From a virus: a DNA stretch of 26,898 nt. The stretch's first letter is position 1. Every line of letters begins with the position of its first letter. The DNA is taken from positions 1 through 26,898 of the IMG/VR virus record IMGVR_UViG_3300006919_000352, one strand, 5' to 3'. Shown in pieces: positions 2,831 to 9,893 of this stretch. The notes under the pieces are model-generated. The model did no database searches, had not been told where the DNA came from, and was given only the letters and a program-made list of their open reading frames with translations. The position numbers and the translations under genes are program-made.

Positions 2831-3610
2831 CTAACAAATTAGTGGAGCTTTGATAAACGCGTTATGCTTATAATTTACTACACTAAAGTTCTCTGGTTTG
2901 TGAATATTCCACTCCTCAACTAATAGCTCAGGAGCCTCCTGATGAATGTCTTGTTCAACTACTGCTTGAGCCATTTTTTCGTGCTCTAAATACAAATGAG
3001 CATTAGCAATTGACAAATATAATTTTCTTGGTGTTAGCCCTGTTTTGTGTGCAATGTAGTGTGCAAACATTGCTCCAACGATAATATCAAACGGCAGACC
3101 TAAAAATATGTCTGAGCTTCTAAAGTTCATTACTGTATGCAATTCAGTTCCAATTTTATAAAAGTTAAAACCAGTATAACAACAAGGCAGAGTTTGCTCT
3201 TCTAAGTCTGACGGGTTCCATAAAGTCATATAAGCTCTACGAGAATGCTCTTGACTTTTTAGCTGGTCAACAACATAGTTCAATTGGTCTTTATGCCCAT
3301 TAAAGTTTCTTAATTGATAGCCGTAAGATTTTGGAATTATGTTTTCGTCGTTTGCCCAGTTGTTCCACCAATAAATTTTATTCTCGTTTAAAAAGTTAAG
3401 GTCTTCTCTTCCTGCAGCTATCCAACAAAATTCAGCTATTGCTTTTTTCCACAATACTTTTTTCAATGTAATAACAGGGAAGCCTTTAGCCAGGTCAATT
3501 TCCATTGATTCATTTATTAAGGGTTTTATTCCTCCATTGCGGCCCGTTACAGTAACTTTAGACGCTAAAGCTTTTTCAAGCAATTCTTTGTATGCAATAT
3601 CGTATTCCAT
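2831..3610 (-). CDS. thymidylate-synthase-fold enzyme, predicted dCMP (hydroxy)methylase
   Basis: This 259-aa protein has thymidylate synthase architecture throughout. R24 and the GFPVIT motif (43-48) come first, then E60, the Trp pair in YWWNNW (80-85), R124-R125, the nucleophile C144, R164-S165-S166-D167, H205 and Y207. It ends with IKAPLIC. The position matching E. coli TS Asn177, which selects dUMP, is Asp175 here (LPFDI instead of LPFNI); I checked the codon, GAT at 3088-3086. Asp at this site is the mark of dCMP-directed relatives such as T4 dCMP hydroxymethylase. The residue after the nucleophile is Tyr145, where TS usually has His. I therefore predict action on dCMP, as a hydroxymethylase or methylase, rather than ordinary dTMP synthesis. 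ATG 3610 is preferred because it sits one base after the upstream stop; the longer frame to 3661 would overlap that gene. Confidence 0.85.
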   Translation of the reverse strand: MEYDIAYKELLEKALASKVTVTGRNGGIKPLINESMEIDLAKGFPVITLKKVLWKKAIAEFCWIAAGREDLNFLNENKIYWWNNWANDENIIPKSYGYQLRNFNGHKDQLNYVVDQLKSQEHSRRAYMTLWNPSDLEEQTLPCCYTGFNFYKIGTELHTVMNFRSSDIFLGLPFDIIVGAMFAHYIAHKTGLTPRKLYLSIANAHLYLEHEKMAQAVVEQDIHQEAPELLVEEWNIHKPENFSVVNYKHNAFIKAPLIC

Positions 3611-3611
3611 T

Positions 3612-3872
3612 TTATTTGTTTTTAAAGTTATCAAGTCCAGCAACATAACCGCAAATGTCAAGCAACGTGTCTTGTTTAGTTTGATAAGCTAAGCGAGAAA
3701 CTTTTAAAGCAATCATACATTTGTACATATCTTCAGCTGTTATATTCTTATTCGTTAACTCGCTTGCAACTACAGCAGCTTTAGCCATTGATTCATTCAT
3801 TGGCCCGTACTGTCTTTGCTTTTCTCCAGCTTGCTCGTTAATTAATTTGTTTGCTTCCAGTAGTATATTCAT
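3612..3872 (-). CDS. DUF6378-like protein
   Basis: This 86-aa protein matches my memory of the phage DUF6378 domain: an N-terminal helix ILLEANKLINEQ, the YGPMNESM loop (22-29), the TAEDMYKCMIALKVSRL segment and the terminal LLDICGYVAGLDNF helix. In many phages this domain is encoded beside or fused to nucleotide-metabolism proteins, and it may belong to the MazG-like alpha-helical group, but its activity has not been established to my knowledge. The start lies 35 bases inside the previous gene and the stop is one base before the thymidylate-synthase-fold enzyme, so these two are probably made together. Confidence 0.75.
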   Translation of the reverse strand: MNILLEANKLINEQAGEKQRQYGPMNESMAKAAVVASELTNKNITAEDMYKCMIALKVSRLAYQTKQDTLLDICGYVAGLDNFKNK

Positions 3873-4272: not shown

Positions 4273-4977
4273 TTAATTCTGTTTGTTTATTAGTTCACGA
4301 GCTTCTTGCCAGTTATTGTATGAGCTTTCAATTTTAGAAGTAGTACCCTCATTTTTTTTAAGCTCGAAAAAACCTTTCCAACCATTCTCGACTGACTGCT
4401 CAATTATTTTCATTTGAATTTCCTGGTCTCCATTGGATATTCTTAAAAGCTTTTTCAAAGCTGCTTTTTCGCCCATAGGTTTATAAGTAACCCTGTAAGT
4501 TTCTTTTCTATATTTTTTCCAATATTCCCAAGCTTCAACATTGATATTCAAATCATTCAAAAAGTCAATGTATTTATCTTTAGTATTTAATTGAATTAAG
4601 TTATTAGTCTTATTAGTATTTAATAGCTGTGCGTTTTGTTCATGTGCATTTTCTACATGAACGTTTTCTACATGTGCGTTTTGCACATCTGGTTTTTCAA
4701 ACACCATATACTCCCAAGACTGTATCTTGCCTTTAATTCTAACTTGCTGACGCTTAACATATCCATGAGCAATAAGCTCCTTAAAAGCAGCGTAAACAGC
4801 TCGCTGGCCGTCTTTGTGCCATGTGCAAACTTCACTAACATACAGCTTCCAATTTTCAGGGACAGCTAACAAGTGACACAATAAACCTTTAGCTTTTAAC
4901 GATAAATCTTTATTGAAAATAAATTCGTTATTTATCGTTGTAAAGTTTCGATTCTTTTCAACTTTGATTCTAATCAT
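4273..4977 (-). CDS. replication initiator (replisome organiser-like)
   Basis: This 234-aa protein has two domains. Residues about 14-92 form a winged-helix-type domain: NNEFIFNKDLSLKAKGLLCH, then GQRAVYAAFKELIAHGYVKR, then a beta wing. This pattern is common in phage O-like and DnaD-associated initiators. Residues 98-117 are four pentapeptide repeats of the VQNAH / VENVH type. Residues about 148-207 form a helical domain of the WEYWKKYRKE to ENGWKGFFEL type that recurs at the C-terminus of phage replication proteins. The DNA coding for the pentapeptides is itself a set of 15-bp direct repeats followed by a very AT-rich stretch, so the gene probably carries the origin. It overlaps the DnaA-like gene by 8 bases. 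Confidence 0.8.
   Translation of the reverse strand: MIRIKVEKNRNFTTINNEFIFNKDLSLKAKGLLCHLLAVPENWKLYVSEVCTWHKDGQRAVYAAFKELIAHGYVKRQQVRIKGKIQSWEYMVFEKPDVQNAHVENVHVENAHEQNAQLLNTNKTNNLIQLNTKDKYIDFLNDLNINVEAWEYWKKYRKETYRVTYKPMGEKAALKKLLRISNGDQEIQMKIIEQSVENGWKGFFELKKNEGTTSKIESSYNNWQEARELINKQN
4629..4688 (-). repeat. four 15-bp iterons, candidate origin
   Basis: Four perfect-length tandem units lie inside the initiator gene at 4629-4643, 4644-4658, 4659-4673 and 4674-4688. On the plus strand they read GTGCGTTTTGTTCAT, GTGCATTTTCTACAT, GAACGTTTTCTACAT and GTGCGTTTTGCACAT. They separate the DNA-binding domain from the C-terminal domain. The next 80 or so bases in the transcribed direction (4628-4545) are strongly AT-rich, as expected of an unwinding element. 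This mirrors the lambda origin inside gene O. Confidence 0.7.
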
Positions 4978-5924: not shown

Positions 5925-6419
5925 CTAAAAAGGTAGGTCGTCTTCTTTTTTAAAGCCAGCTTTTTCAAGCATTGCAATTTTTTCGTTTGGTTCTTCAGCT
6001 CCCATAAGTACCCAGGCTGCAAACTTTTCTGCTTTGTTTTCAATATCTTCAACTGACAATGCACCTCCTTGCCATATCGCTACAGCGTGTCCTAAAGCGT
6101 TTTGGCGCACTATAAGCTCTTCTCTCGTGAATTTAGTATAAGTACCAGGCTTGTTGCTAGAAACCTCCTTAGAAGTCACCGTTTCAGCAAATTCAGCGTT
6201 CTGCGGTTTTATCTTCCAATAGCCATTTTGATTTTGGTCAGCTGTGTAATAAGCCTCTTGACCTTGAATAAATTTATTTTGATTATCTGACTTTGACGAA
6301 TATTCGCCTGAGTCACCATTTTCAAAAGCAATTTCATACTTGTAAAAAGTTCCATACTGTTTAGAGTCATACGTGCCATTTGCTTGCACACTTTTAACGA
6401 CTGATTTTTTAATATTCAT
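5925..6419 (-). CDS. SSB-like protein
   Basis: This 164-aa protein looks like a single-stranded-DNA-binding protein. Residues 1-70 are beta-rich with aromatic and basic residues (GTFYKYEIAFENGDSGEYSS, then YWKIKPQ), fitting an OB fold. After a helical segment (99-152) it ends in KKEDDLPF, very close to the acidic DD[IL]PF tail with which SSB proteins recruit partner enzymes. The N-terminal sequence is not classic bacterial SSB, so the OB assignment is inferred, while the tail is directly visible. It lies near the head of the replication cluster, overlaps the upstream gene by 11 bases and is followed after one base by the next gene. Confidence 0.7.
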   Translation of the reverse strand: MNIKKSVVKSVQANGTYDSKQYGTFYKYEIAFENGDSGEYSSKSDNQNKFIQGQEAYYTADQNQNGYWKIKPQNAEFAETVTSKEVSSNKPGTYTKFTREELIVRQNALGHAVAIWQGGALSVEDIENKAEKFAAWVLMGAEEPNEKIAMLEKAGFKKEDDLPF

Positions 6420-6678
6420 TTTTGATAATTTTTAAATAGTTTATAGTTATTAAGTCTTGAATGAAAGCTTGCTCTGAAATAGTTCTGACAAAAGACTTGT
6501 CCCACTTGTAACAACGTTTTGCAAATTCATTCATAAAGTCTTGAACGTCTTCAGAAGGAATAAAGCACTGTCCCCTCATTTCAGCTACTAATTCAATAGC
6601 GTTTTTCGCTTTATAAGGAAGCTTGTTGCCTTCCAACTGAAAACATTCATTCATTGTTATTTGAGTTTTATAACCCAT
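6409..6678 (-). CDS. hypothetical protein
   Basis: This 89-aa protein is helical, with a central AKNAIELVAEMRGQCFIPSE and a C-terminal FIQDLITINYLKII. No family is recognised. The start overlaps the previous stop by one base (TAATG at 6678), and the end overlaps the SSB-like gene by 11 bases, so expression is coupled within the early operon. Confidence 0.6.
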   Translation of the reverse strand: MGYKTQITMNECFQLEGNKLPYKAKNAIELVAEMRGQCFIPSEDVQDFMNEFAKRCYKWDKSFVRTISEQAFIQDLITINYLKIIKNEY

Positions 6679-7082
6679 TAATTGTTATGATATTTATTTT
6701 TAGCATGAAGATTCACAATAGCACGGTTTCTCAAAGCTTGATAATCTTCTTCTGACAAATTTAAAACCTGAGCCATTCCAGTTAAGTGAAATTTCACGCC
6801 GTTTTTATTTGCAAGCACTTTGTCTTTATTCATTCTAAAAATTTCGTTATTGATTTCTGTTTCAGAGAAGTGTTTTGAACCTCTTGTTCTACCGCGTTTT
6901 ATTGCAGCTGTTTCAATTACCCCTTCAGGCACTTCAGTTGTTTCCTTAGAAAGCGTTAAACAGCTTTCACAAGTCTCTTCAAGCAAGTTAATGTAGTGCT
7001 CAATAACTTCTCTGTCGTGTTGGTCTAAGCCATATAAAATAGCTCCCAGTTTTCTTTGAATTACTTTTTCTGATTTTGTCAT
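6678..7082 (-). CDS. hypothetical protein, possible DNA-binding
   Basis: This is a 134-aa protein. The C-terminal third (GMAQVLNLSEEDYQALRNRA) has the look of a helix-turn-helix or winged segment, and the middle is basic (IKRGRTRGSKHFSE). No defined family is recognised. Its ATG comes one base after the stop of the cyclotransferase-like gene, so it is co-translated with the amidoligase pair and could be a regulator or partner of that pair. This is inference from order alone. Confidence 0.6.
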   Translation of the reverse strand: MTKSEKVIQRKLGAILYGLDQHDREVIEHYINLLEETCESCLTLSKETTEVPEGVIETAAIKRGRTRGSKHFSETEINNEIFRMNKDKVLANKNGVKFHLTGMAQVLNLSEEDYQALRNRAIVNLHAKNKYHNN

Positions 7083-7083
7083 T

Positions 7084-7614
7084 TTAATATTTGTTAAGAT
7101 TAATGTTTTGCCATAAGGCGTTCTGTTTGTTTTTATAGCGTCTTCTCGCTTTTATATGCTCAACCGATTTGTATTTTGAATGGGTTGGCAAACCGTTATA
7201 CATTTGGTCATGATTCATTTCATGTGAAGCATAGCCTTCAAATAGCATATTCCAATAAGATTCTGAAGGGTCATAAATTCCTCTAGCATTTTGTTTTGTC
7301 ATTTGGTAAATCATTATGCTTTCTGGTTTACCATTGAATAAAATTGGTTCATAGACTTTTCCGTAAAAACTAGGGAAGCCCTCAAGCCTGTCAAGAGACT
7401 TCTCGCATTCCTCAGTAATTAACCAGGCTGCTCCTTCAATTTTGTCTTGTAGCTTGCCGGTATAAATTACGTCGCCAACTCCACGGAATACAAATTTATA
7501 ACCTTCTAAAGTTATCTTGCCTAAGCTTTTTGCAGCTGGGCACCTTCTTGCCATAGAATCTAAGTTAGTATTCATTCCATAAGCAAAGTACAATGTTTTC
7601 TTTTTGTTTGTCAT
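7084..7614 (-). CDS. gamma-glutamylcyclotransferase (GGCT/AIG2)-like protein
   Basis: This 176-aa protein begins with YFAYGMN at residues 9-15, the glycine loop of the GGCT fold (commonly YGSN or YGTL). It has a mid-region acidic motif LDRLEG (74-79), where E78 is the expected catalytic Glu, followed by an aromatic PSFYGKVYEP segment. Family members release 5-oxoproline from gamma-glutamyl amines. The gene follows the amidoligase gene after a 98-bp gap. The amidoligase plus GGCT pair is a recognised neighbourhood in phages and bacteria, interpreted as ligation and removal of a gamma-glutamyl-type amide bond. The C-terminal 50 residues are basic and extend past the usual fold. The fold call is good; the substrate is unknown. 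Confidence 0.82.
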   Translation of the reverse strand: MTNKKKTLYFAYGMNTNLDSMARRCPAAKSLGKITLEGYKFVFRGVGDVIYTGKLQDKIEGAAWLITEECEKSLDRLEGFPSFYGKVYEPILFNGKPESIMIYQMTKQNARGIYDPSESYWNMLFEGYASHEMNHDQMYNGLPTHSKYKSVEHIKARRRYKNKQNALWQNINLNKY

Positions 7615-7660
7615 TTTAATTAGTTTTAAAGAGTTTAAATAATGTTTGTTATAGTTTATA

Positions 7661-7704
7661 TATTAAAAGCGAATAGGACTCCTTAAACGAGCCCTAAACG
7701 CCTC
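7661..7704. repeat. intergenic element, copy C
   Basis: This stretch after the amidoligase stop contains the plus-strand boxes CTTAAACGAGC and CCTAAACGCCTC, one helical turn (11 bp) apart, preceded by TATTAAAAGC. The same three blocks recur at 23815-23850 with a short deletion. It lies about 50-90 bp upstream of the cyclotransferase start. It may be a regulator-binding site; no hairpin with a T-tract is visible here. Confidence 0.45.
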
Positions 7705-7712
7705 AGAGTGAC

Positions 7713-8540
7713 TCACACTCTTCTGTTTGCTGTTGCCCATTCGAACACTCCAGAAACATCGTTGTTGAAGTGAGTAGCTCTGTTCATAAAGAACTTCATT
7801 ACTTTTCTGTTTTGACCTCTTCCGAAAACTTCAGTAACTGAATGTTTGAATTCACCTTTAGTTTTTACAACGTGGTTTTTCTTTTTAACAACATCACACA
7901 TGTTGCATAAAAGCACTATCCAGTTGCAAACTTTTTCAGCGTCAGTTGAACCACCGTGTTGTCTGAATTCTACAGTACCATATTTTCTGTAAGAGAATAC
8001 ATTTACAACTCTGTAGCGTGAGCTCATTACGTTTTCAACATCTCTAAAGTCTTCGCAAGAATTTAAGCGGTTCCAGATTCTGTTAATTTCAACTGGTCTT
8101 GCCCAACGGTTATTGTTTAAAGCTCTTCTTGAAGGTTGCATTACCATATCAATTTCCTCTTGGTGTTTAGCGTAAAACTTTATAAGGTTAGTTAAGTTAG
8201 TAGTTGAATAATCAGTAATGCCAACGTGAACATGTACACCGCAAGACTTGTTTACTTTGCAACCGTATTCAGTAATTAAGTTTAGGACTTGAGCCATTTT
8301 GTTTAAACCTTCTTGACCCTGTAGAATTGGAGAAACTAATTCCATTTTGTAACGTCCGCCATTCACTGTAGAATCGTCAACTAATTTCCAAGTTGAAATT
8401 ACTTGGTGAGTATAACCCATATAAGAAGTAGGAATTCCAGCGTTACTTAATAAAGAAGCAATAGCACGTGGGCTTAAAGTCGAGTGACTCATTTCAATTT
8501 CTACTCCGAAAGTTCTGTTTGATTTTAATTTAGTTTTCAT
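7713..8540 (-). CDS. amidoligase enzyme (glutamine-synthetase-like fold)
   Basis: This 275-aa protein carries the marks of the putative amidoligase family (PF12224). FGVEIEM (11-17) provides the metal-binding acids. DDSTVNGG (55-62) and MELVSPIL (66-73) follow, then CGVHVHVG (100-107) and EFRQHGGS (191-198), which match the catalytic Glu, His and Arg positions of the glutamine synthetase / glutamate-cysteine ligase fold. These enzymes are predicted to make an ATP-dependent amide bond between a carboxylate and an amine, possibly on a peptide or protein. I choose ATG 8540 because MKTKLKSNRTFG leads directly into the first motif and an AC-rich leader precedes it; the frame runs to 8594 without family support. 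It is the first gene after a strong terminator and a promoter-like region, so it opens the second transcription unit. Confidence 0.85.
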   Translation of the reverse strand: MKTKLKSNRTFGVEIEMSHSTLSPRAIASLLSNAGIPTSYMGYTHQVISTWKLVDDSTVNGGRYKMELVSPILQGQEGLNKMAQVLNLITEYGCKVNKSCGVHVHVGITDYSTTNLTNLIKFYAKHQEEIDMVMQPSRRALNNNRWARPVEINRIWNRLNSCEDFRDVENVMSSRYRVVNVFSYRKYGTVEFRQHGGSTDAEKVCNWIVLLCNMCDVVKKKNHVVKTKGEFKHSVTEVFGRGQNRKVMKFFMNRATHFNNDVSGVFEWATANRRV

Positions 8541-8583
8541 AATTGTGTTTTTAATGTGTTTAGTTTGTGTTTGTTTGATGAGG

Positions 8584-8668
8584 TAAAGATACACCTTTTA
8601 CGTTACGTTGTTGAAAAAGATTAACTTTTTTTTAAAAAAACTTTGCTTTTTTTCAGTTTACTAGATAG
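8584..8668 (-). promoter_or_regulatory. promoter region of the amidoligase operon
   Basis: On the minus strand TATCTTTA (8591-8584) is one base off the Bacteroidota -7 consensus TAnnTTTG. It lies 44 bases before the amidoligase ATG. The 14-mer CTATCTAGTAAACT (8668-8655) sits upstream and is repeated exactly at 24687-24674 before another gene with the same leader style. A -33 box is not clear. The 5' leader is AC-rich with hardly any G. Confidence 0.6.
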
Positions 8669-8720
8669 AAAAAACTTTAAAATAATTGTTTAATTTTTCT
8701 AAAAATATACAAATAAGCAT

Positions 8721-8754
8721 AAAAAAACGCCCTGAAAACTTAATTCCAAGGCGT
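8721..8754 (-). terminator. rho-independent terminator after the lysis operon
   Basis: Minus-strand transcript: arm ACGCC (8754-8750) pairs with GGCGT (8731-8727), and the stem can extend inward by several pairs with wobbles. It is followed directly by a run of seven T (8727-8721). It lies 30 bases past the phosphoesterase stop and ahead of the amidoligase promoter region, so it closes the late unit. Confidence 0.85.
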
Positions 8755-8784
8755 CACAAACACACATTAAAGGACACAACTCCT

Positions 8785-9501
8785 CTAATCAAGCTCCATA
8801 GGTATCACTATAGGAAGCGTACCATTCTCTAAAACTACTCCGCAAGATACAATATATTTTTTAGTGAAGTTTTTCGCATAAGCCATTGCAAAACTTCTAT
8901 CGTCAACGCCACAACCAACCTGCATAGCAAATAGCTTTTTGTCTTTGTTACAATACCAGTCAACAAAAGCCTCGGTGTGAATATGTCCTTGCACAATTGA
9001 GGTCTGCCATTCTCGCAACCTTTTTGTTATTCCTTTGCCACTGCAACCAGTTCCATGCACGTACAAAACCCCATCAATTTTATGAGTCATTTGAAAGTCC
9101 CAGCCTGGAGTTCCTAATACTTCTGAATAGTCTTTAACCCATTTTTTTGAAAGTCCAGCGCTAAAACTTTTTCGCGCGATTATTGCGTCATGATTTCCAA
9201 TACAGACTAAAGCCTGCGGGAATTTTCTATACCAGGTCTGGACCATATCAATTGCCCTTTGTAATTCTTCTCCAGCTGAATATCCGTCAGGGTCTTGCTC
9301 ATGAAACGAACTATAATGGTTGTCAATAGCGTCTCCTATTATCACGACTTTATTACAATTAAATTTTTCATAAGTGTCAAGGCAATGCTCTAAATATCCC
9401 TCGCGAATAAAAGGAGCATGCAAGTCGCCAATTACTAAAACCCTATTTGAATCATTTCTAAGCCTTCTAATGAGACTTAATTCGTTTGCTGATAGTTCCA
9501 T
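8785..9501 (-). CDS. calcineurin-like metallophosphoesterase
   Basis: This 238-aa protein has all five signature motifs of the two-metal phosphoesterase fold in order: GDLH (25-28), GDAIDNH (56-62), GNHD (102-105), VHG (148-150) and GHIH (172-175). Family members hydrolyse phosphomonoesters, diesters or cyclic nucleotides. I choose ATG 9501, which overlaps the holin TAA by one base (TAATG); the frame extends to 9585, but that part lies in the holin gene. It is the last gene of the late unit and is followed by a terminator. The placement after the lysis genes is unusual. A nucleic acid or nucleotide substrate is plausible, but the sequence does not decide it. Confidence 0.85.
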   Translation of the reverse strand: MELSANELSLIRRLRNDSNRVLVIGDLHAPFIREGYLEHCLDTYEKFNCNKVVIIGDAIDNHYSSFHEQDPDGYSAGEELQRAIDMVQTWYRKFPQALVCIGNHDAIIARKSFSAGLSKKWVKDYSEVLGTPGWDFQMTHKIDGVLYVHGTGCSGKGITKRLREWQTSIVQGHIHTEAFVDWYCNKDKKLFAMQVGCGVDDRSFAMAYAKNFTKKYIVSCGVVLENGTLPIVIPMELD

Positions 9502-9893
9502 TATTTTTTTATCTTTTCTAAACCACGTGAGCCAAAATATGAGCCTATAACAGTTATAAGAACAACCGTCAAAAGGTCTGTCCATTTTTCTTCTACAACA
9601 AAAGAAATTGCTCCAGCGTCAATGAATATTAAAAGCGTTGTAGAAATAACTAGCCAGGCTAATACTAAAGGCCGAATTGATTTGCTAAGCCATGAGTCTG
9701 AATTCATGTCCGCCTGCCATCGTTTTGTTACTTCTTGCTGAAGCTTTTCTTCAAACCCTAAAACAATTTTTTTGACTTCAGCTTTAACAAGTTCTTTTTC
9801 TTCTGCTGAAGTATGTATTTTGTCAATAGCATTTCCTACTGAGTCGACTAATTCTTTAGCTCCTGAATTGAATATCTTTTTTAGTAAAGCCAT
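9501..9893 (-). CDS. holin of the 3-TM family
   Basis: This 130-aa protein has an N-terminal amphipathic helical part (1-65) and then the typical holin core: SKSIRPLVLAWLVISTTLLI (70-89) as the first clear membrane segment and WTDLLTVVLITVIGSYFGSR (104-123) as a second, ending in a basic tail GLEKIKK. The W-x-S-x-SIRP motif before the membrane part is characteristic of the Holin_3TMs family (PF11351). It permeabilises the inner membrane so the endolysin reaches the wall. The start overlaps the peptidase gene by 13 bases. Confidence 0.85.
   Translation of the reverse strand: MALLKKIFNSGAKELVDSVGNAIDKIHTSAEEKELVKAEVKKIVLGFEEKLQQEVTKRWQADMNSDSWLSKSIRPLVLAWLVISTTLLIFIDAGAISFVVEEKWTDLLTVVLITVIGSYFGSRGLEKIKK

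Follow-up and report, generated by a model that had tools for sequence, protein, structure and literature searches.

Introduction

In GGCT/GGACT chemistry, a gamma-glutamyl group is cleaved by its own free alpha-amine, which attacks the gamma-carbonyl and so releases 5-oxoproline. An enzyme of this fold works together with a ligase in the butirosin system, where the ATP-grasp ligase BtrJ adds gamma-Glu, GGCT-fold BtrG removes it, and the small acyl carrier protein BtrI carries the substrate. A ligase of the glutamine-synthetase (GS) fold is combined with a small protein in pupylation (PafA/Dop).

Phage amidoligases of the PF12224 family have been annotated since 2009 and no known target for them was found in the literature. 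Their neighbourhood with a GGCT was predicted by Iyer 2009, as reported by later citing papers. Excerpts of PMC11318856, PMC11945000, PMC11253131 and PMC5498523 propose cell-wall modification for amidoligase-GGCT clusters, and an excerpt of PMC10945688 proposes nitrogen metabolism for one such cluster. In the passages of papers citing Iyer 2009, no assay of the isolated phage enzymes was found.

Here, we analysed a viral DNA stretch of 26,898 nucleotides (IMGVR_UViG_3300006919_000352), hereafter the window, which carries both genes. The amidoligase-GGCT pairing itself is already known. What is new here is a small protein family as a partner of the amidoligase. The features considered are the following.

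8726 to 8755, minus strand: intrinsic terminator after the metallophosphoesterase gene (12-pair stem and T tail)
8541 to 8665, minus strand: conserved leader, with islands conserved in the window and in its relatives L002 and L201
7713 to 8540, minus strand: GS-fold amidoligase (PF12224), 275 aa (Pfam, PHROG, AlphaFold, motifs)
7674 to 7696, minus strand: hairpin between the amidoligase and GGCT genes, a terminator-like match
7084 to 7614, minus strand: gamma-glutamyl cyclotransferase-like protein (PF06094), 176 aa (Pfam, PHROG, family profile)
6678 to 7082, minus strand: lineage-restricted protein, 134 aa
6409 to 6678, minus strand: amidoligase-associated small protein, 89 aa, of a family found downstream of the amidoligase on the same strand

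The amidoligase and the GGCT-like protein

The amidoligase is recognized by the PF12224 profile with 119.9 bits (curated cut-off 22; E 2.2e-34) and matches phrog_2443 at 6e-47. The ORF listing begins at an upstream GTG (8594); we preferred the ATG at 8540 as start codon because close relatives begin at ATG. The AlphaFold model (pLDDT 95) has a glutamine-synthetase/YbdK fold. Structure comparison places it near YbdK and the glutamine synthetases, with Z of 12-13 over about 220 residues, and Foldseek retrieves YbdK at 1.8e-6. The fold and the ExE, HxH and ExR motifs expected of PF12224 are all present, and the ExE (E14, E16), GxHxH (G101, H103, H105) and ExR (E191, R193) motifs are invariant in sets of 26 and 54 relatives. 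The first-pass annotation, which had described a GS-fold amidoligase with the family motifs, is upheld on this point; the loss of catalytic residues in close relatives, which it named as an outcome speaking against its reading, was not seen, the residues being intact in all of them. The protein is most likely an ATP-dependent gamma-glutamyl ligase, as predicted from its sequence.

The downstream protein is matched by PF06094 (34 bits, cut-off 22.8; E 4.8e-8) and by phrog_2520, 'gamma-glutamyl cyclotransferase', at 9e-22. Compared with human GGCT and the PF06094 GGACT proteins, the window's GGCT family profile matches human GGCT at 2.5e-19, and residue E78, invariant in 23 relatives, aligns to its catalytic Glu98. 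The glycine loop reads YGMN, not YGSN, with Y, G and N kept. A GGCT-like protein with its glycine loop and catalytic Glu, as first annotated, is therefore confirmed. This enzyme could be the one that reverses the product of the ligase; for both enzymes, the presumed substrates are assigned by homology.

Conservation of the amidoligase-GGCT neighbourhood

Of 193 amidoligase loci, drawn from contigs of viruses and bacteria, 91 show a GGCT gene within the fetched flanks, and in 89 of these 91 it follows the amidoligase downstream in the same orientation. There is some redundancy among the loci, which means that the figures count loci and not independent events. By tblastn, GGCT was found in 43 of 50,697 phage records. 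Linkage of the two genes therefore exceeds chance, in agreement with the earlier description of the pair as a known conserved neighbourhood. Gene order in related phages had been suggested as a check. In the two close relatives of the window, L002 and L201 (amidoligase identity about 64%), it is kept, over most of the 16.5 kb of L002 and around the module in L201.

Elsewhere, PF12224 enzymes adjoin a class-II GATase or, in one Hymenobacter-type locus examined, peptidase C26, so that pairing with candidate amide-handling enzymes seems to be a wider theme. The presence of GATase and that of GGCT are negatively associated at amidoligase loci (odds ratio 0.14, p 3e-6), to which we give no weight because phylogeny confounds the comparison. 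In the Hymenobacter-type locus (L287, 2884-4910), a chromosomal PF12224 amidoligase gene overlaps that of a peptidase C26, of the gamma-glutamyl hydrolase family. A similar high-scoring PF12224 match without the small protein occurs in many other genomes of the same sample.

A small protein family follows the amidoligase

It had been suggested that the gene at 6678-7082 could be a third component of the module. Its 134-aa product has no Pfam or PHROG match, and across the 193 loci homologues were found only in L002 and L201, apart from a weak non-adjacent match in L207. This candidate was dropped; the conserved partner is instead encoded by the next gene, at 6409-6678, whose start overlaps the stop of the preceding gene (TAATG).

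The family of this 89-aa protein emerged from clustering all neighbours of 190 anchored amidoligase loci. At 90 of the 190, a member stands just downstream of PF12224 on the same strand, often overlapping it. The corresponding profile matches 99 ORFs. For 97 of them, an amidoligase gene of the same orientation lies upstream at a distance of no more than 2 kb; the two that remain are a second, weak match in L245 (E 0.007) and the small gene of L037, which stands at the contig end. The small gene overlaps the amidoligase gene or starts at most 30 nt after it in 63 of these 97 loci. In the window, two genes separate them.

Whole genomes gave a similar picture. Among 25 chosen for an amidoligase match, all 20 small-family matches follow a PF12224 match. 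Among 200 genomes sampled by bacterial family, 15 of 18 small-family matches follow a PF12224 match at 76-139 bp, the other three being one degenerate copy, interrupted by five in-frame stops, and two longer proteins. This second test is not fully independent, because the profile (A7) was built from amidoligase neighbours, some Hymenobacter members included; 8 of the 15 adjacent matches are in genomes that were not part of the set fetched earlier. In 150 further genomes of one other bacterial family, no small-family match was found and five genomes carry an amidoligase without the small protein. The small protein is not universal: it is missing from about one amidoligase locus in two, among them almost all of the Firmicutes-type branch.

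Architectures are correspondingly mixed, with amidoligase-GGCT counted 41 times, amidoligase-small 35 times and amidoligase-small-GGCT 32 times, besides versions with GATase. The order amidoligase-GGCT-small is common to the window, L002, L201 and L227. On a tree of 174 amidoligases, at least 17 changes in GGCT presence and at least 15 in small-protein presence are needed. The presence of the small protein is independent of that of GGCT (odds ratio 1.08), and no PF06094 gene was found anywhere in 11 of 14 checked genomes with amidoligase-small loci. Taken together, these two observations argue that the small protein belongs to the amidoligase. The 11 genomes also make the amidoligase and the small protein look like the core of the system in one branch, with GGCT as an optional eraser.

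Divergence points the same way. Mantel correlation with the amidoligase is 0.88 for the small protein and 0.77 for GGCT; the partial values are 0.68 for the small protein given GGCT and 0.15 for GGCT given the small protein, all of these values being inflated by shared ancestry.

These results bear on the proposal that the enzymes feed host glutamate, glutathione or nitrogen metabolism during infection. An excerpt of PMC10945688 proposes such a role for a Planctomycetes phage with amidoligase, GATase, glutathione synthase and GGCT. A dedicated small partner is, however, not expected of a metabolic enzyme, and GGCT is absent from most of the partner-bearing genomes checked. We regard an auxiliary metabolic role as very unlikely.

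Properties of the small protein

Over 45 members, the small family has no consistent Pfam, PHROG or NCBIfam match, scattered matches being at E 0.002 or worse, and its profile matches no PDB chain. The AlphaFold model has a pLDDT of 73 and no Foldseek match under 0.001. A calponin-homology fold was considered and rejected, the best match (VIA, Z 2.9) being taken as noise. Conservation is highest at F72, L76, M49, V31, R55, G61, G80 and D75; the last position is Asp in 75% of the 45 members and Glu in 11%. Across these members no Lys, Cys or acid is invariant, no C-terminal motif is conserved, and the C-termini vary.

A close-kin scan of viral sequences with the small family retrieved the window's own relatives only. 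PADLOC models matched neither the amidoligase, GGCT, the small protein nor the 134-aa protein. Two genomes of the 200-genome sample encode longer proteins that contain the small domain and have no amidoligase nearby. The domain therefore has other uses, and it may be used in defence islands. One of these longer proteins (L284, 4153-4617) adjoins an AbiTii gene; a similar protein is encoded in L285 (3560-4009).

The small protein might be an acceptor or carrier that receives glutamate or another acid from the amidoligase, in the manner of LysW/BtrI or of a peptide tag, with GGCT then releasing or deprotecting it. Tight adjacency, small size and divergence correlated with that of the amidoligase are in line with this, as is the known removal of a gamma-glutamyl protecting group by the GGCT-fold enzyme BtrG. 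No typical attachment residue is invariant, however, whether Lys, Cys or a C-terminal motif, and we hold the acceptor or carrier role to be rather unlikely. For the same reason, the missing invariant lysine and conserved C-terminus, we favour an adaptor or regulator over a tagged substrate.

Expression signals

The module follows a strong terminator, as first annotated: the element at 8755-8726 is real, with its 12 pairs and T tail, and has a folding z of -4.28. Between it and the endolysin-like and holin-like genes stands a calcineurin-like phosphoesterase gene (8785-9585, minus strand; phrog_221), in the same order in L002 and L201.

The leader (8541-8665) contains a TATCTAG-AAA motif, AAAAAAAAGTTAA, TATCTTTAC and an A-rich stretch ending in AACACAATT before the ATG. 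TATCTTTAC resembles the Bacteroidota -7 element; the strict Bacteroidota consensus TTG/TANNTTTG was not found in the leader. The conserved islands are consistent with a promoter. Of the promoter region claimed for the pair, an upstream element conserved in three phages is thus retained, whereas a match to the strict consensus is not. In the region 8541-8700 (minus strand), the motif CTATCTAGTAAA upstream of the amidoligase is retained in L002 and, with little change, in L201, and is a possible operator or promoter element.

Between the two enzyme genes, the hairpin at 7696-7674 has a GGGCTCGTTTAAG core that is invariant in three phages. It is possibly an attenuator or a processing site and may lower transcription of GGCT. 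Because of this conserved hairpin, the amidoligase and GGCT may be made in unequal amounts.

The genes on both sides of the pair are on its strand. That the pair is made early or at a high level in this phage, which the first-pass annotation held to be likely, stays an inference. In other phages the pair is found next to the terminase gene, within the head-to-tail block or downstream of the lysis genes, which argues that an early role is not general.

Other genes of the window

A ThyA homologue (2831-3661, minus strand) carries GLPFD, as does that of L002. At this place thymidylate synthases have GLPFN (Asn177 in E. coli), Asp being typical of dCMP hydroxymethylases, and judging from this residue the homologue may make 5-hydroxymethyl-dCMP. 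A MazG-like gene (2390-2689) is nearby. A link between the amidoligase and ThyA, with hypermodified DNA in mind, was dropped, as ThyA is found in only 4 amidoligase loci. A stand-alone DnaA C-terminal DNA-binding domain (PF08299; 4970-5389, minus strand), without the ATPase, is encoded beside a replication-initiation gene (4273-4977). Phage matches of the window's terminase, capsid and ThyA are all under 60% identity. No close bacterial relative pointing to a host was found in a first genome scan and only distant ones in a second.

Proposed mechanism

Our preferred reading, held tentatively and at slightly less than an even chance, is that the locus is a reversible amide-modification module in which the small protein is an adaptor or regulatory subunit of the amidoligase. 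The amidoligase would use ATP to activate a carboxylate, most probably that at the gamma position of glutamate, and join it to an amine. If GGCT acts on the product, this would be a gamma-glutamyl amide whose alpha-amine is free, because GGCT needs a gamma-linked glutamyl group of that kind, and GGCT would remove the group as 5-oxoproline. The small protein would present the amine substrate or control the activity of the amidoligase. Candidate amine targets are a phage protein, a host protein, a wall peptide or a small amine.

The data suggest, as the unit in which to look for activity, the amidoligase with its small protein, rather than the amidoligase with GGCT alone. The small partner is found in phages as well as in prophage-like loci, across several bacterial phyla, and is separable from GGCT, which provides a handle on the target of the amidoligase.

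Comparison with known systems

The modules of phiEco32 and LUZ24, like that of the window, have a PF12224 amidoligase with GGCT close downstream and a single direction of transcription. They are larger: in the window, which may be a genome fragment, no ATP-grasp, COOH-NH2 ligase or class-II GATase was found among the scanned proteins, which are encoded near the pair and downstream of it, leaving a two-enzyme version. For phiEco32/LUZ24, cell-wall modification is predicted, by which a changed peptidoglycan peptide would serve superinfection exclusion. Carrying this published prediction for related modules over to the window is made unlikely by the three enzymes missing among its scanned proteins, by the small family, no member of which was found in LUZ24 and phiEco32, and by the window sequence, which gives no pointer to the wall.

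The best structural matches of the amidoligase are YbdK, the GCS2 carboxylate-amine ligases and gamma-glutamylmethylamide synthetase, with which it shares the fold and the metal/ATP motifs, though with 12-14% identity over the aligned part and a shorter chain.

Pupylation resembles the locus in combining a GS fold with a small protein, and Dop is among the structural matches of the amidoligase. One might imagine a phage-borne GS-fold system that tags proteins or works with a carrier, the 89-aa protein being modified and GGCT being the eraser. The chemistry would be alike, but the small protein is unrelated, and the conserved C-terminal Gln/Glu of pupylation is not present in the 45 members of the window's small family; we consider such a system improbable. 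The butirosin system resembles the locus as well. We claim no homology with BtrJ, BtrG and BtrI; the likeness lies in the combination of a ligase, a GGCT-fold enzyme that removes the group and a small protein.
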